32,082 bases of DNA from Kalymmatonema hyalinum WJT4-NPBG1 (GTDB lineage: Bacteria; Cyanobacteriota; Cyanobacteriia; Cyanobacteriales; Nostocaceae): positions 1 to 32,082 of the forward strand of contig JAHHIB010000098.1 of NCBI GenBank assembly GCA_019359075.1, written 5' to 3'. The position numbers and the translations under genes were made by a program. This document shows, in pieces, positions 5,867 to 30,168 of this stretch. How positions within the stretch are numbered: the first letter of the stretch is position 1; every line of letters starts with the position of its first letter. The notes beneath the pieces were generated by a model that had not been told where the DNA came from, ran no database searches, and was given only the letters and a program-made list of their open reading frames with translations.

Positions 5867-5933
5867 TTCTCTGTTCCCTCCAGTCATGAGTCATGAGTTA
5901 TTCTCTCCTCACCTCCCCAATAGCTTACCTATA

Positions 5934-5968
5934 AAGAAACCCGGTTTCACAGAGAAACCGGGTTTCTT
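5934..5968. repeat. 15-bp palindromic dispersed repeat (AAGAAACCCGGTTTC)
   Basis: A perfect 15-bp stem with a 5-nt loop (ACAGA). It belongs to a well-populated class of cyanobacterial AAGAAACCGGGTTTC-type palindromes. Both flanks are non-coding. The gap 5867-6196 holds nothing else I can identify. Confidence 0.8.
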
Positions 5969-6196
5969 GGGTAAGTTGCTGTGAAGACCTGGCAACCTCA
6001 AGTGTTGCTATCAGATCACCTTTCCAGACGAGAAACGGAGTACAGGGGATTGTCAAGACAAAGTGTCAGTGAGCGTGACTAATTTATGCACTCTCAAAAC
6101 TCAGCCATCTACTCTGTAGAAATTTGGGAGGATCAACTCAACCAATGTAGTGAGACGCGCTGCAACAACCTGTTTTGGCTATTTTGAGACTGCTAT

Positions 6197-6451
6197 TTAG
6201 GGGGACTTGGTTGGAGTGGCGGCAGGACTAGCTGCGCCACCAGCACCAGCACCAGCACCACCAGGGGTAGTTGTGGTGCCACCCGCCGGAGGGGTAGTGC
6301 CAGTATCTGCTGGTTCAGCAGGTGAAGTAGCGGCACCTCCAGCGCCCCCAGCGCCCCCAGGAGCATCGCCGCCACCACCACCACTATCACAGGCTCCGAG
6401 AGCTGCTGCCAGACCCAAAATTAAAGCAAAACTAAGGATTTTTATTTTCAT
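6197..6451 (-). CDS. Small low-complexity lipoprotein
   Basis: An 84-residue protein starting MKIKILSFALILGLAAALGA, then Cys. The hydrophobic signal ends in a lipobox of type L-G-A-C, so the Cys at about residue 21 is the predicted lipidation site, placing the protein in a membrane facing the periplasm. The mature part consists almost wholly of Gly, Ala, Pro and Thr (poly-Gly, then GGAGGAGG and TTPPAGG blocks), probably disordered. The start at 6451 has GAGGAG six bases upstream; the frame continues 81 bp further but without a signal-like sequence. Function is unknown; proteins of this kind are often annotated only as lipoproteins. Confidence 0.7.
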   Translation of the reverse strand: MKIKILSFALILGLAAALGACDSGGGGGDAPGGAGGAGGAATSPAEPADTGTTPPAGGTTTTPGGAGAGAGGAASPAATPTKSP

Positions 6452-6908
6452 AACTCCTCTTTCACCAATTGCGGCAATAACAATTTTAGCCTGTTGACTA
6501 CGATACCTTATTTGTTGCTTTTTTTTAAGCAACTTGAGATAACAGATTTAAGCAAAATGTTTTTGCTTCTTGTAAAGTCACTCAATCGTTCAGGGTAGTA
6601 TTAGCAAATTAAGTCACAAAGGGCGATATCATAGCAAAAATTGCGTTTTTTTTTGAAACTCTTGCTTATAGTGGCAATGCGTTGCCATACTTTATAAATG
6701 CGATACCTGAGCACTCAAGATGTTCAGCGGCAATTCCATTCATTCCCAAGAAACTAAGTTTCTTGGGAATCGCAAGATTGGTGCGCCTACCTATCAGAAT
6801 ATATTGATTGGGTGTAGGGTGTATTTGTGGTTATTCCCCGAAAGGCAATAATAACCAGAGTAAAAACAAACAATCATCTAGAATAAAGTATTTTCTATCC
6901 AAAAAATT
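6452..6908. other. Intergenic region with a palindrome
   Basis: This gap between the divergent lipoprotein and FtsL-like genes must hold promoters in both directions, but I could not read convincing -35/-10 pairs. It contains a short palindrome GGCAATGCGTTGCC near 6674 and a long one at 6742-6770. No small gene is seen. Confidence 0.5.
6742..6770. repeat. 14-bp palindrome (ATTCCCAAGAAACT)
   Basis: ATTCCCAAGAAACT at 6742-6755 pairs perfectly with 6757-6770 around a single central A. It shares the AAGAAAC/GTTTCTT core with the palindrome at 5934-5968, so the two are probably members of related dispersed repeat families. Confidence 0.75.
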
Positions 6909-11968: not shown

Positions 11969-12050
11969 CGCACCCACGGCTTTAAGCCGTGGGATTCATG
12001 CGTAGAACCGCATGGGTTGCGTCAAGCAACCCCTACCTATCTGTCTAAGG
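11968..12050 (-). ncRNA. Candidate omega RNA scaffold at the tnpB 3' end / element right end
   Basis: On the minus strand, three stem-loops follow one another across the tnpB stop codon: GGGTTGC/GCAACCC (12014-12032), ATGCG/CGCAT (11998-12013) and the 10-bp hairpin CCCACGGCTT/AAGCCGTGGG (11973-11993). In IS200/IS605-type elements the guide RNA of TnpB comes from this position, the tnpB 3' end through the right end, with the guide taken from the flanking DNA. The guide would then be about 11948-11967 on the minus strand. The exact boundary is inferred. Confidence 0.5.
11973..11993. repeat. Right-end hairpin of the TnpB element
   Basis: A perfect 10-bp inverted repeat around one central base (CCCACGGCTT arm). 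Subterminal hairpins of this type mark the ends of IS200/IS605 elements and serve in single-strand transposition by the Y1 transposase TnpA. The element end probably lies a few bases further, near 11967. Confidence 0.7.
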
Positions 12051-13285
12051 TCTAGCCCTAGACTCGTACTTACTTTGGAAAGGATATTGGCAGCGCCATT
12101 CAAATCCGCGTTGATGCGAATACCAGATTTAGAAGTGTATTCACCACGCTTAATCCGCTTGCCTGAGAATTGGTACCCTATCTCCTTCGGAGACGCTGCG
12201 CGAACGGGTTTTTCGCCAAATGCAGGCACCAAATCTCCGTCCAAAAAACTAGCGCGGCTTGTGTATGCTTCTTCTGTTTCTACATAGTTGATACCATGCA
12301 ATTGACACAACTGCTCTATTCGCTTTCTCAACTTAGCAGTAGGAATTTGCACAAAGTCTTGATTGTTACGGCGACCAATATCAATGCCTTGTTTTTGTTC
12401 TAGGTTGCAACCAAAAACTACAGTTCCAACCGCATTGTCTAAGCACCAGTTAATGACTTTTCTTGCTACCTTATTGGTCGCATCCCTTATCTGTCTGTTG
12501 CGCTTATCAGTCATCCGAGCCATGCGTTTCGTGAAAAAAGAATCCTCACCAAACTGTTTATCAACGGCTGTTTGCAAAGCAGCCTTGGTCTTGTTCCACC
12601 ACTGATTGATGGACTTTAACCGTCTACCACTTACTACCAAGGACTTACCATTGGTGCATACTGCTGATATCCAATTGTTTAGACCTGGATCTATACCAAT
12701 AGCATTAGTTCCAATTGCTTGTAGTACTTCATCCATCTCATAAACATACTCGGTATACCAAATACCATGAGAAGGAATAAACCGAAGTTCTTTAATGGTT
12801 TTGCTCCAAAGACGTTCAGGATATGGCACAGTAATACCCTCTATCCCCTCGAAGTAGGTTTTCCCTGCGCGTCCTAGTGGAACTTCCAACCATTTTGTAC
12901 CATCTTTTTCAACTACTTTAATGGCTTGACTGGGATAGACCACTTGATACATTCCGCCTTTTGAACGGTAATGGGGTAGTCTTGGTTTTTGGTTAAGTTC
13001 TCCTTTGTTGGATCTCTTGTCTAATGCTTGAAAGGACTTAAATGCTTCAGCAACACTTTTAAGTGTTTGTTGACCTGCCTGTGAGTGCATAACTTTGTAG
13101 TTTTCGTCAACTTTCAAATCCTTGCACATCTGAGCGTAGGTAATAGTTTTGTCGTTCTCAAAATATTGTTGACGACTTAGATATAGACCAGTGTTGTACA
13201 AGCTATTAGAAGCCATGCCCAATACATTTAATATGACTTGTGATATGGCATCTGGCTTGGTTGCGTCTTTTTGAGTTCCTATCAT
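11996..13285 (-). CDS. tnpB: TnpB, RNA-guided nuclease/OrfB of an IS200/IS605-type element
   Basis: A 429-residue TnpB-family protein, the ancestor group of Cas12: an RNA-guided nuclease that helps maintain its transposon. The RuvC parts are seen in order: IGIDPGLNN (Asp ~199), FGCNLEQKQG (~291-300) followed by RRNNQDFVQIP, and NADLNGAANI (Asp ~393). Two features depart from the textbook form. The usual RuvC-II Glu position reads Gly/Cys/Asn. The region after EEAYTS has no CxxC zinc-finger cysteines and reads ASFLDGD, as in a large cyanobacterial subgroup. No tnpA lies nearby, so the element is solo and depends on a transposase elsewhere. Residues ~360-369 are encoded by an inserted dispersed repeat. 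Confidence 0.9.
   Translation of the reverse strand: MIGTQKDATKPDAISQVILNVLGMASNSLYNTGLYLSRQQYFENDKTITYAQMCKDLKVDENYKVMHSQAGQQTLKSVAEAFKSFQALDKRSNKGELNQKPRLPHYRSKGGMYQVVYPSQAIKVVEKDGTKWLEVPLGRAGKTYFEGIEGITVPYPERLWSKTIKELRFIPSHGIWYTEYVYEMDEVLQAIGTNAIGIDPGLNNWISAVCTNGKSLVVSGRRLKSINQWWNKTKAALQTAVDKQFGEDSFFTKRMARMTDKRNRQIRDATNKVARKVINWCLDNAVGTVVFGCNLEQKQGIDIGRRNNQDFVQIPTAKLRKRIEQLCQLHGINYVETEEAYTSRASFLDGDLVPAFGEKPVRAASPKEIGYQFSGKRIKRGEYTSKSGIRINADLNGAANILSKVSTSLGLDLRQIGRGCLTQPMRFYA
12181..12208. repeat. Dispersed repeat inserted in frame in tnpB
   Basis: TCTCCTTCGGAGA followed by CGCTGCGCGAACG is a common dispersed repeat word of Nostocales. Here it encodes residues ~360-369 (PVRAASPKEI) of TnpB. 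It lies between GEK and the conserved SGKRIKRGEY segment without breaking the frame. Confidence 0.6.
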
Positions 13286-15978: not shown

Positions 15979-18606
15979 CTAGGCTAACGGTAGGCTAATA
16001 TCCGCCGCAAATAAACTTTGTAACCGATGGATTTGAGCGCCAATGAGGTAGAGTAAATCGCCTTTACCTAATAAGCGAGCAGCGGCTGTTTGTTTACCTC
16101 CCAAGATAATTGCTGAGTCTGCTTCACTGGCAGTTCGGAGTGCAACGCGTCCTGGTAAGTTAGAGCGTATAATTGGGGTAACAATACCTGCTTCAGGACG
16201 TTGGGTAGCAATAATCAGATGAATTCCAGCTGCTCTTGCCATTGCACCCAGCCGTTTAATGCTTTGTTCTAACGCTGTACGAGTTTCCTTTTCTGCCATG
16301 AAGTCCGCGTATTCGTCGAAAATACAGACAATGCGGGGCAAAGGCTTTTGAGAACGTTGATTGTAAGTACTCAAATCAGCACACCCAGCTTGTTCAAACC
16401 GCTGATAACGCGACTCCATTTGTGTGACTAATTGATCCATCAGCTCAATAGCGCGATCGCTATCTTTAACGACTGGCGAATACAACCACCGCATCCGCTC
16501 AAATTCGGGAAAGGTAACTCGTTTGGGATCAACAAGGGCGATTTGCAACTGTTGCGGCGAATGACGAACCAGTAGACTCAGAAGGAGCGATCGCAAAAAC
16601 TCACTCTTTCCACTTCCAGTTGTACCCCCAACCAAAAAGTGACAGGTATTTGGATCGGACAAATCAGCTTCTAGCAGCTGTCCCTCTAAATTCACCCCAA
16701 TAGCAATTTTTACAGGTGCTGTTGCTGGTAAAGCTTGCGACTTTATGTAATCCTCAAATCTAGCAACTTGTCTATCTGGACGAGGTAAATCAACACTCAC
16801 ATATCCAGCCTGAGGAGAAATCAGAGGCGGGTTTGCTAAGCCCAACTGTACTTGCAAATCAGCTGATAACTTCAGCAGAGAGTTCACTTTAACACCAAGC
16901 TGGGGTTTGAGCTTCACTCGGATAAAAGCTGGACCAACAGCTGCGCCGTGGTAATCTACACCAATACCAAAAGATTGCAACGTGGCAACCAATTCTTCAC
17001 CTATGGCATCAGCATCAGTTGATCCCTGATTATGTTTTGTAGATGTCTCCCCCCTTTTTAAGGGGAGCCAGTGCGTTGCGGGGGTTCCCCCCGTTGAAGC
17101 AACTGGCGTGGGTTGGGGGGGATCAAGCCTTGCATCAACAAAATAAGTCTGACACTTTTGCTGCTGTGGACAAATTTCGCATAGATAAGGCTGGGTTGTA
17201 GGTGGTGGGGGATTGGGATTTGGCGATTCCCAACTCAGCCATTGCTGCATTTGTTGTAACTTATAGGGAATCAGCTGATGCACCGTATTTTCTAGCTGTT
17301 CCCAGGTATACTGATACTCTTTAAATTCTGGCAAAACACAGTAAACCGCCGAGTCAACTGCTACTTTTTTCTTCTGCCACAGCATATAACTATAAAGCGC
17401 AACCTGGGCTAATTGCGCTGATGCATCAGCAGGCTGATAGGTTTTAAACTCCACCACACATAGGCGCTTGAGTTCAAAGTTGTAGACTAAGCAATCAAAT
17501 TCCCCTCCTACCCGTTGTTGCGTTCCATCTGGGAGATTAAAGTAATACTCAAGGCTGCGTTCTTCTGTGATAAAAGTCTTACGAATAACTGTTTCTGCAT
17601 CGCAATAGCGGCGATTAACTATCAGCAATTCTGCAAAGCGTTTGATGAGTCGTTGTAATCCCTGCCATACTTGCAGCAGTGCTTGTGCTTGGTTAGCATC
17701 TTTTTTAACAACTTGTTGCAAGTAAGGATAGAACTTTACTTCATAAAAAAGCTGTTGCATACCAGAGGCAATTTCCTCTACCTGCAATTGGGCAGCAGAT
17801 GGTTGAAACAAATCTTGAAATCGTGGTTCATGAGTAGCTAAACTCACAAATTCATCAGCTAATTGATGGAATGCCTTGCCAATTCCAGTATGGGTATTTC
17901 GTGGTAAAAATAAGGTATTTCCTCCGAAATGCTGATTCAAATAAAAAAGGCGAGGACACTCAAAGGCTACTCTGACTTTAGTAGCATTTGAAGATGAATT
18001 TTCAGATTGTTTCGTTGATTTTTTTGAGCCATTAGATACCATATCAAAAATATTATTTATAATATTAGGGTTAGAAATTTCTAATAAGCGGCGATGCACA
18101 GCAGCCAAATAAACTGTATCCATTGCGGCATATTGTAGCTGCTTTTGGCTAAGGGGGCGTTTTCCCCAGTCACTTGCTTGTTCTTCTTTATTTACATTAG
18201 AAAACTGACAAAGTTCTGCTGCTAAGGTTTTAAGTTGTAAGTTGGATACTTGCAAAACTTCGCGGGTAATCTTTCTGGCTAGCTTCAGCGTACAGGTAAC
18301 ATTTTGTGCTAGCTGTCCACCCAGATATTTCAAATCAAAGCTGGCGTTGTGGAATACCTTTTCTATTTGGGGATTAACCATGATTTGGTTAATAAAATAT
18401 GCCGCTAAATCAGGTTTATTCAACACATCAAGAATGAAAACAGATTCACCCGCCGAATCTGTGGGGTTAGCCAACACCTGAATTAGCGATAATTTAGGAT
18501 AGTAAGTATTCCAATCAGCGATTTCTGTATCTAACCATAGTGTTTTAGCCGAGGATAATTTGGCGATTTGCCCTTGGATTTCAGTAGCTTCTGTTAGGTA
18601 GTGCAT
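15979..18606 (-). CDS. DEDDy exonuclease - RecB/Cas4-like nuclease - FtsK-type translocase fusion
   Basis: An 875-residue fusion of three DNA-processing modules. Residues ~1-175 are RNase D-like: WLDTE (Asp26, Glu28), FHNASFD (Asp91) and YAAMD (Tyr159, Asp163) make a complete DEDDy set. Residues ~210-490 are a RecB/Cas4-type PD-(D/E)XK nuclease with His247, GGEFD (Asp371) and VVEFK (Glu386, Lys388). Cys217 (ECPRLFYL) and Cys476/Cys479/Cys485 (CEICPQQQKC) match the one-plus-three cysteine pattern of AddB/Dna2/Cas4 4Fe-4S clusters. Residues ~535-870 are an FtsK/SpoIIIE motor with Walker A GTTGSGKS (Lys667), Walker B CIFDE (Asp764, Glu765) and IIATQRPEAGIVTPIIRSNL. There is no membrane segment and no gamma domain. 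The linker ~499-525 is encoded by a dispersed palindrome. It is last in a three-gene operon, 31 bp after the ATPase gene, with AGGA close to its ATG. A role in degrading or processing translocated DNA is inferred. Confidence 0.88.
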   Translation of the reverse strand: MHYLTEATEIQGQIAKLSSAKTLWLDTEIADWNTYYPKLSLIQVLANPTDSAGESVFILDVLNKPDLAAYFINQIMVNPQIEKVFHNASFDLKYLGGQLAQNVTCTLKLARKITREVLQVSNLQLKTLAAELCQFSNVNKEEQASDWGKRPLSQKQLQYAAMDTVYLAAVHRRLLEISNPNIINNIFDMVSNGSKKSTKQSENSSSNATKVRVAFECPRLFYLNQHFGGNTLFLPRNTHTGIGKAFHQLADEFVSLATHEPRFQDLFQPSAAQLQVEEIASGMQQLFYEVKFYPYLQQVVKKDANQAQALLQVWQGLQRLIKRFAELLIVNRRYCDAETVIRKTFITEERSLEYYFNLPDGTQQRVGGEFDCLVYNFELKRLCVVEFKTYQPADASAQLAQVALYSYMLWQKKKVAVDSAVYCVLPEFKEYQYTWEQLENTVHQLIPYKLQQMQQWLSWESPNPNPPPPTTQPYLCEICPQQQKCQTYFVDARLDPPQPTPVASTGGTPATHWLPLKRGETSTKHNQGSTDADAIGEELVATLQSFGIGVDYHGAAVGPAFIRVKLKPQLGVKVNSLLKLSADLQVQLGLANPPLISPQAGYVSVDLPRPDRQVARFEDYIKSQALPATAPVKIAIGVNLEGQLLEADLSDPNTCHFLVGGTTGSGKSEFLRSLLLSLLVRHSPQQLQIALVDPKRVTFPEFERMRWLYSPVVKDSDRAIELMDQLVTQMESRYQRFEQAGCADLSTYNQRSQKPLPRIVCIFDEYADFMAEKETRTALEQSIKRLGAMARAAGIHLIIATQRPEAGIVTPIIRSNLPGRVALRTASEADSAIILGGKQTAAARLLGKGDLLYLIGAQIHRLQSLFAADISLPLA
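17045..17120. repeat. Palindromic dispersed repeat in frame inside the fusion gene
   Basis: GCCAGT (17067-17072) pairs with ACTGGC (17102-17107) around a GCGGGGGTTCCCCCC core. This is a widespread repeat word of filamentous cyanobacteria, usually intergenic. Here it encodes the Pro/Thr/Gly-rich linker (PVASTGGTPATHWLPLKRG) between the RecB-like and FtsK domains. Confidence 0.7.
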
Positions 18607-18637: not shown

Positions 18638-20779
18638 TTACTTTTTCTTAGTGACTAAACAAATTAATTGGTCTTGCAGCTTTGCTTTGGGATCAAAAAT
18701 TTCAACTTTTTGCTCTTGACACAGTTCTCGAATCAACTGTTGAATTTCCGATTCTTTCACAACAGTAAACTGGGCGTTAGTCTCTTTAATTAAAGTCGGT
18801 ACTCCCATGAAACCTTGGTTTGTCACTAAATTCAACAGAAAATTCTTAACTGGTTGTAAATCGTATTTACCATGACCATTGTCTCCATCATCACTTGTTT
18901 TAGAAACAATCTTTAAATCCTGCAATAAAGTACACTTATGCAAAAGATTGCACTCGCGGATTAAAGTTTGTAGTTCCTGCAAATTAATGGTTTTGCCTGC
19001 AAGCACCAATTCATTAGCAAGTACAGAATTGACCAAGCTGTGGTATGTTGCTAAGTAATGAACAGAAGTCAAATTTGGCTTGATATGATCATGATTAGTA
19101 TATGTAAAAATCTGTCTATAGATTTGATTTCCGGCAAGTTTTGGATTTCCTATACTTCCAGCCCGAATCAAGTACATGGTTTGACAGAGATTTTGCTGAA
19201 TTGCGTTCTTGCAAGCATTCATCACATTGAAAAAACTTGTCATGTTTGAATCTTCTGTCCAAACTATCCCTACTCGCTCACGCTTACCAGACTGCTGATA
19301 ACTCAAGGAATAACTGGCGTACTTCCCACTTATAAGTTTAGGCTTAATTTCCTGTACTTGTAATGCAGCTAAAGCTTCTTGCAACATTCCGATAAATTCG
19401 GTTGCTGCTAACAGAGTAATTTTAGTGATTTTTCCCTGAACTTTTTGATATTCCTGCCGCCATAGCAATTGAAATTCTGCTTTTATTTTTTCACTTTCAT
19501 CCGGCTGATTAATAATTATCGGAGTTTTAGGAATATCAGGTTTTTGAGTTACATGGGCAATAACTTTTTTACTATCACCTGTCCCTTCTGATGTGAGAAT
19601 GATTTGAGGTTTAGCTGTTTCAGTGGTTTTAGTGTTTACTATTGAAAATTTATACTTTTGATACTCCTGTCTTCCCAAAACTAGGGTATTTCTCGGCATA
19701 GTTTTGCCGCCAGGAAAACTCCCCTCTAAAACTTGCCTATTTAAAGGGAAAATCGGAGAAGTGGGCTGAGGATTTGCTTGTTGGTGTAATGGCTTTAACC
19801 TATAAGCCCATAGTGCTTCTGCCTGATCTAGTGTAATGAGTTTTAACTGAACTAATCGTTCAATTCTAGCTTTGTCAGCAGGCTGAATACGAGCAGTATT
19901 TCTTCTCCAGGTATCAGTAATGATACTTATGATAACCAAAAAATTTTTTAGATAGTTATTATGAATAGTTGTATTGACATTAAACAAAGCCTGAAAATCT
20001 TGAGAGCCATCTGGTAAGCGAGGAATGTTGTCTAAATTATCAAAACATAAAACAATAGGCTGAGTTTCAGTAGCAATCCTGCCAAAATTTGCCAAAATAT
20101 TTTTAGCAGCATCTTCTGAATCAATACAGTGTTTGACTTTTAAGTCTTGCATAGACTCTTCACTTAAGTCATCTCCTTTTAACCACTCACAGGCTAAGGG
20201 GTATAGTTCTGGATTTGCCAGGTCATGCAGCACACCAAAAAAAATGTCAGGATTATAAATACTAGCTTGTTTGTAAGTTTGCTTAAGATGCTTAATGAAT
20301 TTTTGGCGATCACTTTGTAATAATCGCCAGATACTATCATTAAAAAATCGCTGCTGAAGATTGCGTTTGGTAAACGCAGATAAACTTTTCAGCCACAACA
20401 TCAACTGAGATTCTTGCTCGCCCTCTGGCACTTGAATTAAACTATCAACTGTATAGCGCAGGACATGACGCCAAATGTAGTCGCTATCAGCCCAAGGACC
20501 GATGTAGGCAAAAAAAGCTTTGGGGTTGAAGGTGCGTTTGAGCCGACCTAATAAATAACTTTTACCAGAACCGGAGTCACCTAAAAGCAACACACTACGA
20601 CTACGATTGTCTGTGGCAACTAAGTCTAGTAGCCCTTCAAGTTCAGCTATTGCCTCTTGATGAATTGACTCAACCATTAAGATTGAGTCTTGCTGTTCTC
20701 CCCAAAAGTTACCGGGTTTCAAATTTGTCAGGTCAAAAGGGTTTACCTCGCGTTTAATGATGTCGTTTATAGATGGCAT
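18638..20779 (-). CDS. AAA-type P-loop ATPase with C-terminal winged-helix-like region
   Basis: A 713-residue ATPase, middle gene of the operon. Walker A is LLLGDSGSGKS (Lys73). Walker B is IVLCFDNLDN (Asp247). A sensor-like strand ends in IITDTWRR (~285-293), and a helical lid (ARIERLVQLKLITLDQAEAL) resembles ORC/Cdc6- or KAP-like AAA proteins. The N-terminus (FWGEQQDSILMVESIHQEAI) looks like the usual entry to the ATPase core. Residues ~345-430 are a low-complexity linker. Residues ~440-570 form an alpha/beta domain I cannot name. The last ~90 residues (VPTLIKETNAQFTVVKESEI onward) look like a winged helix. No membrane segments. The likely role is loading or regulating the translocase-nuclease encoded downstream. 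I do not recognise a named defence family. Confidence 0.8.
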   Translation of the reverse strand: MPSINDIIKREVNPFDLTNLKPGNFWGEQQDSILMVESIHQEAIAELEGLLDLVATDNRSRSVLLLGDSGSGKSYLLGRLKRTFNPKAFFAYIGPWADSDYIWRHVLRYTVDSLIQVPEGEQESQLMLWLKSLSAFTKRNLQQRFFNDSIWRLLQSDRQKFIKHLKQTYKQASIYNPDIFFGVLHDLANPELYPLACEWLKGDDLSEESMQDLKVKHCIDSEDAAKNILANFGRIATETQPIVLCFDNLDNIPRLPDGSQDFQALFNVNTTIHNNYLKNFLVIISIITDTWRRNTARIQPADKARIERLVQLKLITLDQAEALWAYRLKPLHQQANPQPTSPIFPLNRQVLEGSFPGGKTMPRNTLVLGRQEYQKYKFSIVNTKTTETAKPQIILTSEGTGDSKKVIAHVTQKPDIPKTPIIINQPDESEKIKAEFQLLWRQEYQKVQGKITKITLLAATEFIGMLQEALAALQVQEIKPKLISGKYASYSLSYQQSGKRERVGIVWTEDSNMTSFFNVMNACKNAIQQNLCQTMYLIRAGSIGNPKLAGNQIYRQIFTYTNHDHIKPNLTSVHYLATYHSLVNSVLANELVLAGKTINLQELQTLIRECNLLHKCTLLQDLKIVSKTSDDGDNGHGKYDLQPVKNFLLNLVTNQGFMGVPTLIKETNAQFTVVKESEIQQLIRELCQEQKVEIFDPKAKLQDQLICLVTKKK

Positions 20780-20838: not shown

Positions 20839-21690
20839 CTAGTTCTCGCTGATAAAGAACAGCGGACCACCAATATTTTGAATAATTCCAGCATCAATCT
20901 GTTCTGGAGTATAGGCGCTAGCTTCTTGCAAGGTACTCAACTCAATTTGGTCGCTCGCTTGCAGACGATACAGTGCCTTATCTAATTCTTCCCGTGATAG
21001 CGGGGGTTGTAACTTTTGCCGCAGATGGAAGATTGGCAAATAATTGTCAGTACCTAGCTCCTGATCCAATCTCCGGATAGTTTGTAAAATTTCTTCGTCA
21101 GTGAGATTAATAATTGTTACAGCAGCCGACTCTTCCTTGGTAGGCGCTGAAGTAGCTACTTGCTCAGGCTTACCATGTAGAGATTTCCGCAAAAAGCGCA
21201 GGTAATTATTCAGCAGATCCAAGCTTATATTTGCGGCTCCCTTTGGACTGTAGTCATCCCGCAAATACTCAATTCCGCGTTCGGTAAGCCATACCTCAGC
21301 TTTAGTCTTCTTAATCTTGATATCAGCTTCAATTAATCCCTTTTCATGGAAGCTTTGCAAGATGGCGTCTCGCTCCTCTGACTTCACAGATTTGACATTG
21401 ATTTTGCTTGGCGTGATTTTTCCTGAAGCCTTGCTGATACTCTCCAGTACCTTCAATTCATTAGGCTTGAGCGGCAACTGATCTGTGTCAGTTTTTAGCA
21501 GAGCTTGACCAGGCGGTAAAATCTTAACTGCGGCAATCTCGCGGGAATAGTCTACCAGTTCGCGATCGCCTAAATTTTGACAAATTTTCTCTTTACCTTT
21601 AAAAGCTTTAAAACCACTAGCAGTAAGGCTTGACCGATAATCGGAACATCCTAGTAACTTTAATAAGAACTTTAACTCATTGGTATCCAT
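20839..21690 (-). CDS. Winged-helix protein, first gene of the nuclease-translocase operon
   Basis: A 283-residue protein with no enzyme motifs. Residues ~70-155 look like a winged helix (LKPNELKVLESISKASGKIT, then a KAEVWLTERGIEYL wing). Residues ~195-283 look like a second one (LPIFHLRQKLQPPLSREELD, then ALYRLQASDQIEL). The final segment AYTPEQIDAGI...GGPLFFI recurs, as far as I remember, at the ends of several cyanobacterial proteins of multi-gene ATPase loci. It could be a DNA-binding adaptor for the ATPase and translocase or a repressor of the operon. The gap to the ATPase gene is 59 bp. The ATG at 21690 is the first in the frame. Confidence 0.7.
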   Translation of the reverse strand: MDTNELKFLLKLLGCSDYRSSLTASGFKAFKGKEKICQNLGDRELVDYSREIAAVKILPPGQALLKTDTDQLPLKPNELKVLESISKASGKITPSKINVKSVKSEERDAILQSFHEKGLIEADIKIKKTKAEVWLTERGIEYLRDDYSPKGAANISLDLLNNYLRFLRKSLHGKPEQVATSAPTKEESAAVTIINLTDEEILQTIRRLDQELGTDNYLPIFHLRQKLQPPLSREELDKALYRLQASDQIELSTLQEASAYTPEQIDAGIIQNIGGPLFFISEN

Positions 21691-22406: not shown

Positions 22407-23756
22407 ATGGATTCTTCCAAACTTAGGCAAGTACTGTTGGATCTTCCGAGTAATGCGCAAGAGCCAATAGTTGGTAACATATTCATTCCATATCTGCTAA
22501 AGCTGCTGGATTTTGATGCAACTGAAACCGTCCCCAAGTTTGCTACTGGCAATAGCTTTGACGCCGTTGATTACGCTGTTCGCAAGAATGCTGACAACGA
22601 CATCTTCGTCAACACCAAGTCTAACCCCTACCTACTGTTGGAAATAAAAGGTAGAGATATTAACCTAAGCGGAAATTCTGCACAGTATAGGTCAGCAGTT
22701 AAGCAGCTTCACGGTTATTTACGTGGTTCAAATTGCAAGTCTGCCCAATGGGGAATTATTACAAACTCCAGACACATTCAATTGTTTAGGAAGCATGGCA
22801 AGGTTATCCACGCAGCGTCGTCCTGCCTGGAGATTACACCTGACAACGTTGACGAGATTGTGGCGGCTATCAAAGCTAAAATCGACAACCCTCCCAGGGC
22901 GCTCACAGTCGCCATTTACAACAATAAAGGGGGCGTGGGAAAGACTACAACCACGGTAAATCTGGCAGCTACATTGGCAGCTTTTGGAAAACAAGTATTA
23001 ATTATTGACTTTGACCCAAACCAACAGGATTTAACCAACTCCCTTGATGTGAAACCAAAGGAAGATGCGCTGTATTCCTGGTTGGAAAATAAGCCGAGTC
23101 CATCATTTCCTCCAGGGGTGATGTTCAGGTTCAGTTTCCCGACAAAGTCCACTGGCACAATAGTATTTGATGTTATCCCAAGTGACAAAAAGCTGACGGT
23201 TCTAGGAGAAGACAAACTGCGGCAAGTTTTTAGTATACGTAAATTAAGGCAGGTGATTGACCCGCTAAAATCTGTATACGACTACATTTTAATTGACTCT
23301 CCACCCAACTGGAACTTCTTCAGTCAGAGCGCGGTGTATGCTTCGGATGTAGTTTTGATTCCTACCAAGCACAACAACATTTTTTCTCTACAGAATGCGG
23401 CAATTGTTATCAAACAATTCATTCCAGAAGTCCAAAGTTTTAGGAAGGATGGGGGACCAATAGCTCTTCCTATCTTCTTTAACGGAGAAGCTATTACCCC
23501 AGCAGCACGAGCTACGGCTGACCGAGCATTAGATGAAATCATCGAACAGGCGAAAAAGGATAAAACTAACCCCTTTGACTTAACGCCGTACTTTTACTCC
23601 CGTTACAGTCAAGCGAAACCGGATCACTACATTTTCAACTTGCCCAGCTATGCCCACATTGCGAACGCGGCTTTTGCTCGTACGCCATCTGTGTATAGAA
23701 ATAAAACAGCATATGATTACTATTTTGCATTAGCCAAGGAGTATTTTCTACAATGA
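22407..23756 (+). CDS. PD-(D/E)XK (HsdR-N-like) domain fused to a ParA ATPase
   Basis: A 449-residue fusion. Residues ~1-160 resemble the N-terminal nuclease domain of type I restriction HsdR subunits. Asp55 in AVDYAVRKN, Glu79/Lys81 in LLLEIKG and the WGIITNSRHIQLFR strand match the D...ExK core and the following family signature. Residues ~166-449 are ParA/MinD-like, with deviant Walker A NNKGGVGKTT (Lys174, Lys179), Walker A' IIDFDPNQQD and Walker B YILIDSPP (Asp297). ParA ATPases move DNA or cargo on the nucleoid. Fused to a nuclease-type domain, this one may recognise or cut DNA, or use an inactive domain for binding. The gene has no clear ribosome-binding site and overlaps its ParB-like partner by four bases. 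Confidence 0.85.
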   Translation: MDSSKLRQVLLDLPSNAQEPIVGNIFIPYLLKLLDFDATETVPKFATGNSFDAVDYAVRKNADNDIFVNTKSNPYLLLEIKGRDINLSGNSAQYRSAVKQLHGYLRGSNCKSAQWGIITNSRHIQLFRKHGKVIHAASSCLEITPDNVDEIVAAIKAKIDNPPRALTVAIYNNKGGVGKTTTTVNLAATLAAFGKQVLIIDFDPNQQDLTNSLDVKPKEDALYSWLENKPSPSFPPGVMFRFSFPTKSTGTIVFDVIPSDKKLTVLGEDKLRQVFSIRKLRQVIDPLKSVYDYILIDSPPNWNFFSQSAVYASDVVLIPTKHNNIFSLQNAAIVIKQFIPEVQSFRKDGGPIALPIFFNGEAITPAARATADRALDEIIEQAKKDKTNPFDLTPYFYSRYSQAKPDHYIFNLPSYAHIANAAFARTPSVYRNKTAYDYYFALAKEYFLQ

Positions 23757-24457
23757 GCTTAAGCGATGTTGGGAATTTAATGTGCCTTGATAAGGATGGA
23801 ATTAACCCAGGCAAAGGTACAAACGCACCAGAGTTTTTAATCAAAGTATCTGCAAAAGCGCTTAATGAGTCGGGTGGTCGCAACTGGGTTCCGGTGATTG
23901 TTAAAGAAACTGGTGAAGACCAGTACGAAGTTATCGGCAACTCGTTCATTTTCGCGGTTGCAGAGGAAGCCGGACTGGAGAAAGTGTGGTGTATCATCGC
24001 TGACCCCAGTGAGCAGACATCTGAACTAACCAAAATTCTCGCTGGGGAATTCGTACCGAAAGTCAACCTATCGACCGCAACCAGAGATGAAATTCAATCG
24101 GCGTTGCAGTACCTCATTGAGAAGCCAAATAGTGAATTAAAAGGGGTGAAACTGGCGATCGCCACCAATCGTATTGATGGAGCATCGCGTAACGAGTGGG
24201 AAAACCTAGACCCAATCACAAAGTTAGCGTGCGGCATAACTAGGGGAAAGAAGCTGGATGCACTCAAGGAAGTCTTTTACCTGAATCCTGAGCCAACAAC
24301 AATTGAACCCGTCATAGATCCTGGGGTCATCACAGATCCTGAAATATTAAAAACTCTGACAGTTGCAAAGCTAAAAGAGATGGCAAGGGAACGAGGAATT
24401 CCTGGATATAGTGGCAAGAGAAAGCCAGACTTAATTAAGTTGCTATCGAAAAGTTGA
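23753..24457 (+). CDS. ParB-like protein with C-terminal Rho-N/SAP-type domain
   Basis: A 234-residue protein whose ATG overlaps the ParA-like stop (ATGA), so the two are co-translated. Residues ~40-85 (NWVPVIVKETGEDQYEVIGN then AEEAGLEKVWCIIAD) resemble the N-terminal ParB/Spo0J nuclease-like fold in degenerate form. The GERR-type CTPase motif of ParB is not seen. The middle is helical, and residues ~199-234 (LTVAKLKEMARERGIPGYSG then KRKPDLIKLL) form a clear Rho-N/SAP-like nucleic-acid-binding motif. Position behind a ParA gene suggests a partition-type DNA adaptor, here with a SAP-type helix pair in place of the usual HTH. ParB assignment is moderate; the SAP/Rho-N call is firm. Confidence 0.75.
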   Translation: MSLSDVGNLMCLDKDGINPGKGTNAPEFLIKVSAKALNESGGRNWVPVIVKETGEDQYEVIGNSFIFAVAEEAGLEKVWCIIADPSEQTSELTKILAGEFVPKVNLSTATRDEIQSALQYLIEKPNSELKGVKLAIATNRIDGASRNEWENLDPITKLACGITRGKKLDALKEVFYLNPEPTTIEPVIDPGVITDPEILKTLTVAKLKEMARERGIPGYSGKRKPDLIKLLSKS

Positions 24458-27717: not shown

Positions 27718-30168
27718 ATGGCAAACCCTTCAAATCCTGCACCAAAACCATGCAGACCAAATGAGCCGAATTCAAGTCCACTCAAGCGCATTTCTGAAAA
27801 ATTCAAGGAAAAGCCTCAACAGGGAAGTTGGCTAGCGTCGATGGTAGCAATGACGGTTTTGTTATGCAGCGCTGGTTTAATTACGACTTTTGCCTGGATT
27901 AGCGTTCAATTTATACTTAATCCAGAGCAGGTAAGCTGGCTAAATAAATCTTTACCAGGATGGGGAAACATTTCCGACAATAACTCAGAACGCTCCCAAA
28001 CCCTCAGAGAAATTCAAGATTCCCTCAGCAAACAAGGACAAATAGCGGGACAAATCCTACCTTTGGAACGCGACACAACAACTTCTTTTTTACTCCCTGT
28101 TTTTAAGCAGCGTGCTAATTGTCAGTCTGATTGCAAGTATATAGTTGAACTTAGGGTTTATCAACGCGCAGGGAACCCAGAACTGCAATCTGTATCAAAG
28201 GCATACTATCATCTAGCCGCTCAACTCAAAGTGACTGGACCAGAAGAATCTTTTGTCGTCGCCCCCATCGTGAATGCTACTGATGACAACCAAGGTTCCA
28301 GTTTACGCTTGCCTTTAAGCGAAGTAGGTCGTTTTGAAGGCGATACACCCTCACCAGGTGTATGGTTCTATTTACGAGGACAGCGTCAACAAGGAACAAG
28401 TGGAATTGCCTATGGTCAGATACTTTACTACAATCCCGAAGGCACTCACCTACAACTTATGCTGCCTTGGACAAGTCCGAGTGGACAACTCCCTCAATGG
28501 CGGGAAGTCACTGGTGGTGATGCAAAAGAGTTAGTCGTAGATCAAACAGTTGGTCTAGAACCGCACCTACGCGTTTATCAAGTCAACTCTGTGAAGTTTG
28601 TCCTCAACCCTATTCAACTAGAGCAAATTTCCCTGACTCCACCAGCCCTCGAAGATCCAGATTACCAAAATGCCTTGGCTTTAGCCCGTAGTGGACTGTG
28701 GACACCAGCCTTTAAACAGTTGGAATCTCTCAAAAAACAGCTGACAGGGCAGCTTCCAGAAGCCGCACAAGCGCAAATGGATGTGATTGACTTGCATTCC
28801 CAAGTTACCAAAACCCAGGCAGACACAACTTCGACAAGTCCCAGCCAACAAGTCCTGGCAGATTTAATAGATGGTCGTTGGGACAAAGCTTTACAAGTGT
28901 TTGAGGCTTCGTTGGAAAATGCCAAAGATATTGCCACCTTACTAAAAGCAGATAAAGGACCGTTGTGGAGTCGTGTAGAAGCACAATTGCGGGTGAACCC
29001 AAATCAACAGTCGGTGCAAGCTTGGGGTGCCTTGATTTTAGCAGCCAAGTATGGGCAACAACGGGCGAATTCCTGGTTAAACGGGCAATCCAAAACCACA
29101 ACAGACACCCTTACCTATATTCAAGGGTTGTTAGGACAACTCAATGGTGACGCCGCATCTCAAATCCCTACTCACGACAGCCAGATTGTTGGTTCGGTAC
29201 AATCAATCGCTGAAGTTAACGCCGCTGACTGGCTAAAACCTCCCTCACAACAGACGCGTCATAGGGTTTTTGAAGATAAGCGCCATAGTATTTTTGTAGA
29301 TACGCAGCAAGACGTGTCTCTACAAAAAGCTGATAACCAGGTTTGGTATCAGGTGGAAGTCTCTGCATTTCATGATGGAAGACGCTGGCTATATTTCCCG
29401 TTTACAAATTTAAAGCCTCCTCAAACTTCTAAAGAAAAATTTTTGTGGAAGGCTTTAGGTATAGATTCTGACCCGGAAATTCAAATAGTCGTCTGGCTGG
29501 CAAACAGAGAACAGGTCACGACGACAGCCACCATCAAAGCCGTGCAATTTCGCGATGGCGTCTTGCGGTTACTCGTTGCCGCAGATGAGAGTGTAGAGAG
29601 TTTATATGCAACGTCTCTACAACAACCACTTTTAGCGATGACAAATTCTGCTTTAGAATGGGTTGAGCCAGTACCAATGACGCTCCAAGAACTGTACCAA
29701 CAAGACGCCCTCGGGGTAAAAGCCATGCTACCAATATTGTGGCGATCGCTCCAAGAATCTGGTCAGTTGCCTGGTGGTGCGGTTCCAGACTCGCAATATA
29801 TCCTGCAAAAGCTAGGAAGTTTGCCCGTTCAACAGGTTGATTTAACAGGTGATGTGATGCCGGAAACTGTGCTAACCATTCCGCCAGAGGCTATAGCATC
29901 TTTAGATATGCAAGATACCAGCGAGGACGGAAGTTTTCAGCCGCTACAGCCAACACTCACAAGTCCTGACAAAAATCAATCCCGTCCTCGCACGCTGATC
30001 TTGTCTGATAGTGGTCAAGTCATTTATACTGATTTAAAGCAAGATTCCCAAGGTCTGTTGAGGGCGATCGCTAAGCTCTCCGCTGGGCAATCTGTAGGTT
30101 TGCTTCTAGAGAATGCCCACGGTTATAGTTTGAAAGTTTGGTCACAAAAGAAGCAGCGCTTTGAATAG
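27718..30168 (+). CDS. Large conserved-type protein of unknown function, one membrane helix
   Basis: An 816-residue protein I cannot name. Residues 1-36 are Pro/Asn/Lys-rich, and ~38-66 (LASMVAMTVLLCSAGLITTF onward) form one membrane helix, so most of the protein is probably on the far side of a membrane. Residues ~100-310 are beta-rich with a Cys pair (RANCQSDCKYIVEL). Residues ~310-480 are helical and TPR-like in spacing (YQNALALARSGLWTPAFKQL and ADLIDGRWDKALQVFEASLE). The remainder alternates strands and helices and ends in a basic stretch. The frame is intact from the ATG at 27718. It stands alone. A periplasmic or thylakoid-lumen scaffold is a guess from topology only. Confidence 0.75.
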   Translation: MANPSNPAPKPCRPNEPNSSPLKRISEKFKEKPQQGSWLASMVAMTVLLCSAGLITTFAWISVQFILNPEQVSWLNKSLPGWGNISDNNSERSQTLREIQDSLSKQGQIAGQILPLERDTTTSFLLPVFKQRANCQSDCKYIVELRVYQRAGNPELQSVSKAYYHLAAQLKVTGPEESFVVAPIVNATDDNQGSSLRLPLSEVGRFEGDTPSPGVWFYLRGQRQQGTSGIAYGQILYYNPEGTHLQLMLPWTSPSGQLPQWREVTGGDAKELVVDQTVGLEPHLRVYQVNSVKFVLNPIQLEQISLTPPALEDPDYQNALALARSGLWTPAFKQLESLKKQLTGQLPEAAQAQMDVIDLHSQVTKTQADTTSTSPSQQVLADLIDGRWDKALQVFEASLENAKDIATLLKADKGPLWSRVEAQLRVNPNQQSVQAWGALILAAKYGQQRANSWLNGQSKTTTDTLTYIQGLLGQLNGDAASQIPTHDSQIVGSVQSIAEVNAADWLKPPSQQTRHRVFEDKRHSIFVDTQQDVSLQKADNQVWYQVEVSAFHDGRRWLYFPFTNLKPPQTSKEKFLWKALGIDSDPEIQIVVWLANREQVTTTATIKAVQFRDGVLRLLVAADESVESLYATSLQQPLLAMTNSALEWVEPVPMTLQELYQQDALGVKAMLPILWRSLQESGQLPGGAVPDSQYILQKLGSLPVQQVDLTGDVMPETVLTIPPEAIASLDMQDTSEDGSFQPLQPTLTSPDKNQSRPRTLILSDSGQVIYTDLKQDSQGLLRAIAKLSAGQSVGLLLENAHGYSLKVWSQKKQRFE

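Follow-up and report, generated by a model that had tools for sequence, protein, structure and literature searches.

The closest described relatives of the locus considered here belong to a predicted anti-invader class, “HerA/FtsK capture,” proposed from gene neighborhoods in a computational survey (Rakesh, Aravind, and Krishnan, 2024; PMC10853773), whose main text includes some members in which FtsK is joined to a 3′→5′ exonuclease. A 2026 BREX follow-up, in the portion consulted, adds a BREX-related capture system. No experimental study of the class was found in the open-licence PMC literature. The stretch analyzed here (the window) comprises positions 1 to 32,082, or 32,082 nt, of contig JAHHIB010000098.1 of the cyanobacterium Kalymmatonema hyalinum WJT4-NPBG1. 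It contains a three-gene operon whose last gene encodes a triple fusion (DPF) of a DEDDy exonuclease, an Fe-S PD-(D/E)XK nuclease, and an FtsK motor. A preliminary description of this gene knew of no named system with such an architecture, but a class including the exonuclease fusion had already been predicted (PMC10853773, main text). We consider it probable that the operon encodes a chromosomally anchored DNA-restriction machine of the ORC/Cdc6-type capture class, directed against invading phages or plasmids. This prediction rests on the conserved linkage of the three genes, exchange of the middle one, patchy distribution, a plasmid-borne copy, a kinase fusion, and the ORC/Cdc6- and TnsC-like fold of the middle gene product, as well as on the independent grounds on which the class was proposed to act against invaders (PMC10853773, main text).

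All three genes lie on the minus strand. The first (20839–21690; 283 residues) probably encodes a winged helix-turn-helix (wHTH) DNA-binding protein; the second (18638–20779; 713 residues) an ORC/Cdc6-like AAA+ ATPase, here AAA, which we propose as the specificity or loader subunit; and the last (15979–18606; 875 residues) the fusion. The gaps are 59 bp (wHTH to AAA) and 31 bp (AAA to fusion).

The fusion begins with a DEDDy 3′–5′ exonuclease domain (18067–18606, minus strand; residues 1–180, with D26, E28, D91, Y159, and D163), matched by Pfam family PF01612 over residues 3–175. It is followed by a nuclease domain of the RecB/AddB/Cas4 type (17143–17994, minus strand; residues 205–488), with key residues C217, H247, D371, E386, K388, Q401, Y405, C476, C479, and C485; PDDEXK_1 was found in 29 of 32 fusion members, while a sequence search of the PDB matched this domain to no solved structure. 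The C-terminal part (15997–17040, minus strand; residues 523–870) consists of an FtsK alpha domain and motor, with no match to the KOPS-reading FtsK gamma domain. The catalytic residues are kept in all 76 full-length sequences, apart from E386, replaced by D in five, and the four cysteines, the last three spaced C-x2-C-x5-C, are invariant. On these points the preliminary description stands: domain matches confirm its three domains, its catalytic sets and its Fe-S assignment fit the conserved residues, and its picture of a DNA-destroying pump is still a reasonable one to draw from the sequence. It missed, however, both the partner genes and the hypervariability of AAA, and also that the DEDDy domain is an optional part of the architecture. 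This domain is absent from the copy on a conjugative plasmid of Pseudanabaena PCC 7367, from L083, and from G153, so that the shared core is the Fe-S nuclease plus FtsK.

The exonuclease was likely acquired in a single fusion event, since in a DEDDy tree the RNase D clade (18 sequences, 98/96) contains only stand-alone proteins and no fusions. Outside this clade and near the fusions is one stand-alone protein (L124, G113), placed there with weak support. The stand-alone DEDDy protein of G113 (517 residues; L143, 4394–5947) has an exonuclease domain close to the fusion type in the tree, with weak support; that genome has the wHTH-AAA pair, and no fusion gene was found in it. A further rearrangement is seen in G125, where a Ser/Thr kinase domain has been gained between the two nucleases, giving a four-part fusion (DEDDy, kinase, PD-(D/E)XK, FtsK). 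A separate gene nearby encodes only a restriction endonuclease (REase) domain homologous to the fusion nuclease; the two genes occupy 5925–6788 and 10508–13873 of L115. Because the kinase models are broad, a link to PD-T4-6 and Mad6 is only suggestive.

Linkage of the three genes was examined in relatives of the fusion from cyanobacterial genomes (the best 80 of 147), 70 of which have at least 3.3 kb of upstream DNA. In these, AAA lies upstream of the fusion in 69 and wHTH upstream of AAA in 68 (L075 lacks both, L008 lacks wHTH). Median intergenic gaps across loci are 55 and 29 bp. When the window is included (81 loci), the fusion family is found in 80, AAA in 77, and wHTH in 70, followed by a MinD/ParA-type family (47) and glycosyltransferases (27 and 22); the remaining families reach 19 at most.

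Of 386 genomes sampled evenly across the phylum, with fusion counts tallied by hand, 38 have full-length or nearly full-length fusions, some of them interrupted, stop-carrying, or N-truncated. All 38 are within the window's order (105 genomes sampled), the other 67 genomes of which lack the fusion. AAA is present in every one of the 38, and in eight further genomes without an intact fusion. G046, G227, and G095 retain both fusion and AAA, separated on one contig by distances of 148 kb to about 2 Mb; wHTH still adjoins AAA in all three. The conjugative Pseudanabaena plasmid (PCC 7367) carries all three genes as recognized by profile, the fusion lacking its DEDDy domain.

The middle gene behaves differently from its neighbors. 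Among 67 loci with all three genes, 23 pairs have fusions at least 90% identical; AAA identity is below 75% in eight of these (down to 48%) and at least 75% in 15, while wHTH falls below 75% in none. These pairs share species and so are not independent. In the most extreme case, a pair of Brasilonema loci (L006 and L033), identities are 95% for the fusion, 87% for wHTH, 48% for AAA, and 94 and 89% for the flanking GT2 and GT4 genes, glycosyltransferases in the flanks generally tracking fusion identity. At the DNA level this pair is 93–98% identical over most of wHTH, 44–70% over AAA, and 95–98% over most of the first half of the fusion gene; in such profiles identity drops near the wHTH/AAA junction and is regained either about the middle of AAA or where the fusion begins. 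L063, L066, L083, L104, L107, and L108 carry additional copies of AAA, in tandem or separated by a few kb, which are a possible reservoir for exchange; with the copies adjacent to DPF, AAA identity between L063 and L066 is 91%.

Tree comparisons agree with this picture. In approximately unbiased (AU) tests the AAA data reject all six fusion-supported clades (p from 0.031 to 2e-50), values to be taken as descriptive because the clades were chosen after the identities had been seen; the wHTH tree contains all six, two with modest support. When AAA is divided at residue 445 and halves at least 75% identical are counted as alike, the 49 pairs with fusions at least 85% identical include 20 in which both halves are alike, 18 in which both differ, eight that differ in the N half only, and three that differ in the C half only. 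The N half rejects all five clades tested. The window's own AAA looks mosaic from its sequence: its N half is 87% identical to L055 and 51% to L007, its C half 75 and 80%, respectively, and the C-half tree places it with L007, L009, and L010. AAA is thus repeatedly exchanged between fixed neighbors, either in its entirety or by N or C halves. Exchange of one gene while its neighbors stay fixed is as expected of a defense against invading DNA; as evolutionary evidence it independently signals conflict, and it points to AAA as the subunit that should bear specificity.

The AAA+ domain of the AAA protein (19637–20659, minus strand; residues 41–381, with Walker A from G67 to K73 and Walker B around D247) is nearest in fold to ORC/Cdc6 and TnsC; fold matches were obtained for this domain and for two of the three effector domains. 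The wider fold class of ORC/Cdc6-type ATPases also includes the STAND/NLR immune receptors. Residues 428–587 (19019–19498, minus strand) have a predicted element order, helix-helix-strand-strand-strand-helix-strand, of a REase-like fold, known here from prediction and with no structure match. They contain no D on the second strand and no E-x-K on the third, that is, no PD-(D/E)XK signature, and would form an inactive REase. The predicted elements of the C-terminus (residues 642–708; 18656–18856, minus strand) suggest a winged-helix-like part; its match to GMT-wHTH (0.003) is below cut-off, and was seen in one of 43 members. The protein encoded by the wHTH gene matches HTH_45 in eight of 38 members, the window copy having no match at 0.01. 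No meaningful match came from searching PDB sequences with the profiles of AAA and wHTH.

Turnover is visible even within the window's genus: of three species whose main flanking blocks are 89–96% identical in DNA, one has the island intact, one has it broken, and one lacks it. At the same site G387 has only fusion remnants (profile positions 487–571 and 570–869; 97% identical over residues 574–873), and neither AAA nor wHTH was found at that site; in G386 the TPR gene and GT2 have no island between them. Several other genomes carry fragments of the fusion or stops in it, and in G299 the fusion is split by other genes.

A possible mechanism can be sketched from these features. AAA and the small wHTH protein would recognize some feature of foreign DNA, which might be a sequence, an origin of replication, or a complex of protein and DNA. 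In its ATP state AAA might then load or license the FtsK motor of the fusion on the recognized DNA. The Fe-S RecB-type nuclease would cut the duplex as the motor pumps it past, and the DEDDy domain, where present, may trim 3′ ends. AAA would be the specificity part, recombined between constant flanking genes. More tentatively, it could be a cassette-like specificity locus whose recombination retargets one nuclease-pump, by analogy with HsdS exchange in Type I restriction; the likely targets would then be plasmid or phage replication origins or initiator complexes. If swapping AAA does move the target range, this would show that an ORC-like initiator ATPase can act as an interchangeable sensor of invaders, and would provide many filamentous cyanobacteria with a restriction system open to testing.

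Several observations weigh against a restriction machine of this kind. The operon is mostly chromosomal (AAA was found in one of 72,556 plasmid records), and its synteny in many Nostocales makes it stabler than a typical defense-island gene. PADLOC matches of the fusion are to single domains (the FtsK of SspH, Cas4, HerA, and others), with none for the two partners. Among the Foldseek matches of AAA, HslU and Rix7 appear alongside ORC/Cdc6 with comparable E-values, and the TM-scores are low. The C half of AAA rejects only two of the five clades tested: L033 with L055 (p 0.49) and L021 with L036 (p 0.23) are not rejected, and L031 and L069 are kept together; the caution attached above to the AU values applies as well. 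AAA also evolves faster in general, which by itself would lower its identity, but would not produce mosaic switches. Finally, G300, G225, and G066 each have a solitary AAA gene at the syntenic site, with about 40% identity to the window's and with no wHTH or fusion (L099, 5971–8061; L100, 6497–8533; L101, 6940–8946); whether orphan sensors or remnants, these genes are unexplained by the model.

The strongest rival is a housekeeping role in DNA-end processing, in which the fusion would substitute for RecBCD/AddAB or HerA-NurA in resecting double-strand breaks, with AAA as its loader. Joining an AddB/Dna2-type Fe-S nuclease to a double-stranded DNA motor would suit this role, as would the chromosomal and syntenic setting just mentioned, and no RecB above cut-off was found in the window's genome (AddA and AddB were not searched for). 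Patchiness and allele exchange argue against an essential repair enzyme, however: the island is broken or absent in the other two species of the genus, most genomes sampled in the order lack the fusion, and the middle gene changes alleles. The conjugative plasmid copy and the kinase fusion point the same way, and we regard a repair role as unlikely. That the genes instead form a self-serving or domesticated mobile element, acting in the partitioning, transfer, or exclusion of a plasmid or integrative element and not in host defense, seems quite unlikely. A Pfam scan of ten window proteins revealed no relaxase or integrase (there is one stand-alone TnpB), and the nuclease residues are strictly kept. 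Viral sequences did not yield a relative of AAA either: 117 stretches of viral_contigs matched a pattern, none confirmed as a relative, and none was found in phage records. For the fusion, 187 phage records matched, none covering 80% of it; the 15 listed involve the FtsK part only.

A phosphorothioate-dependent restriction module resembling SspFGH or DndFGH, with backbone sulfur as the self mark, is suggested by the best PADLOC match of the FtsK part, which is SspH (9.8e-69 over residues 508–853), and by a DndC-family gene in the window's genome and in 36 of the 38 fusion genomes. This co-occurrence carries no information, since DndC is found almost throughout the order (93 of 105 genomes, including 57 of the 67 without a fusion). 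Two genomes, G046 and G153, carry the fusion with no match in the DndC-family search (SspBCD was not searched for), which makes phosphorothioate dependence unlikely. The partners, moreover, match neither SspF nor SspG, whereas strong matches are obtained for a genuine SspFGH system of a cyanobacterium (L140); all told, such a module appears very improbable.

Other genes lie in the island or elsewhere in the window. A divergent ParA-like and ParB-like pair (22407–24457, plus strand) is a recurrent neighbor outside the conserved core, and possibly a second conflict module. The N-terminus of the ParA-like protein is restriction-enzyme-like, with weak HSDR_N and Cas4-like matches. Such genes also adjoin the operon or lone AAA genes in L063 (2442–4714), L099 (8356–10523), and L106 (3978–5920); the ParB-like partner, checked in the window, L063, and L099, is weakly matched in L063. 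The stand-alone TnpB-like (OrfB_IS605) gene lies close to the island, at 11996–13285 (minus strand). At 27718–30168 (plus strand) the window encodes an 816-residue protein with no Pfam family above cut-off and only a weak DUF2780 match; it is 94% identical in G387, and 93% identical over the 359 residues seen in G386.

Comparison with known systems separates the locus from several that share its parts. Judged by the descriptions consulted, HerA-NurA differs in that the window has a single polypeptide, an FtsK and not a HerA motor, and a RecB/AddB-type Fe-S nuclease in place of NurA. AddAB/RecBCD and Dna2 have an Fe-S staple PD-(D/E)XK nuclease with four cysteines, as does the fusion. The motor of AddAB/RecBCD is a UvrD-type helicase, whereas that of the fusion is FtsK, and no UvrD family was found in the three operon proteins (Pfam, E 0.1). 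SspFGH has, like the operon, three genes: a Walker-A ATPase, a middle gene, and a large protein with an FtsK-like C-terminus (PMC8092258, as far as consulted). It works together with single-stranded DNA phosphorothioate genes (same portion of PMC8092258), and SspH has about 1,770–1,790 residues at the loci seen, against 875 for the fusion. Membership in SspFGH was rejected, as the partners have no PADLOC match at E 0.1, while the control L140 scored 3.2e-241 for SspF and 2.3e-205 for SspG. That locus (6998–15773 of L140; G290, from the window's class) is an SspFGH system with strong PADLOC matches to all three genes. No DndF, DndG, or DndH matches were found in the operon (PADLOC, E 0.1, run without a positive control).

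Agreement is closest with the ORC/CDC6-type HerA/FtsK capture systems as set out in the main text of PMC10853773. Both have an ORC/Cdc6 AAA+ ATPase and an FtsK motor with FtsK-alpha, and an exonuclease-FtsK fusion is found in some members of that type as in the window. The inactive REase described there between the AAA+ core and a C-terminal wHTH may have a counterpart in the window's AAA, to judge by the predicted element order and the missing PD-(D/E)XK residues of the part that matched no structure; the active REase has its counterpart in the PD-(D/E)XK residues of the fusion, whose activity is predicted; and the separate wHTH gene may correspond to the probable wHTH found in 68 of 70 loci. 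A word search of that main text found no RecB, AddB, Cas4, allel-, hypervariab-, or cyanobacteri-. Allele exchange, a feature of window-type operons, is not described there for the ORC/CDC6 type, and S/T/Y kinase fusions are described for DndF but not for this type. As far as the literature searched extends, and with PMC10853773 compared by its main text, it is new that the ORC-like gene is exchanged, that the nuclease is assigned to the Fe-S RecB/AddB type, that a kinase fusion occurs in the class, and that the island turns over within a genus.
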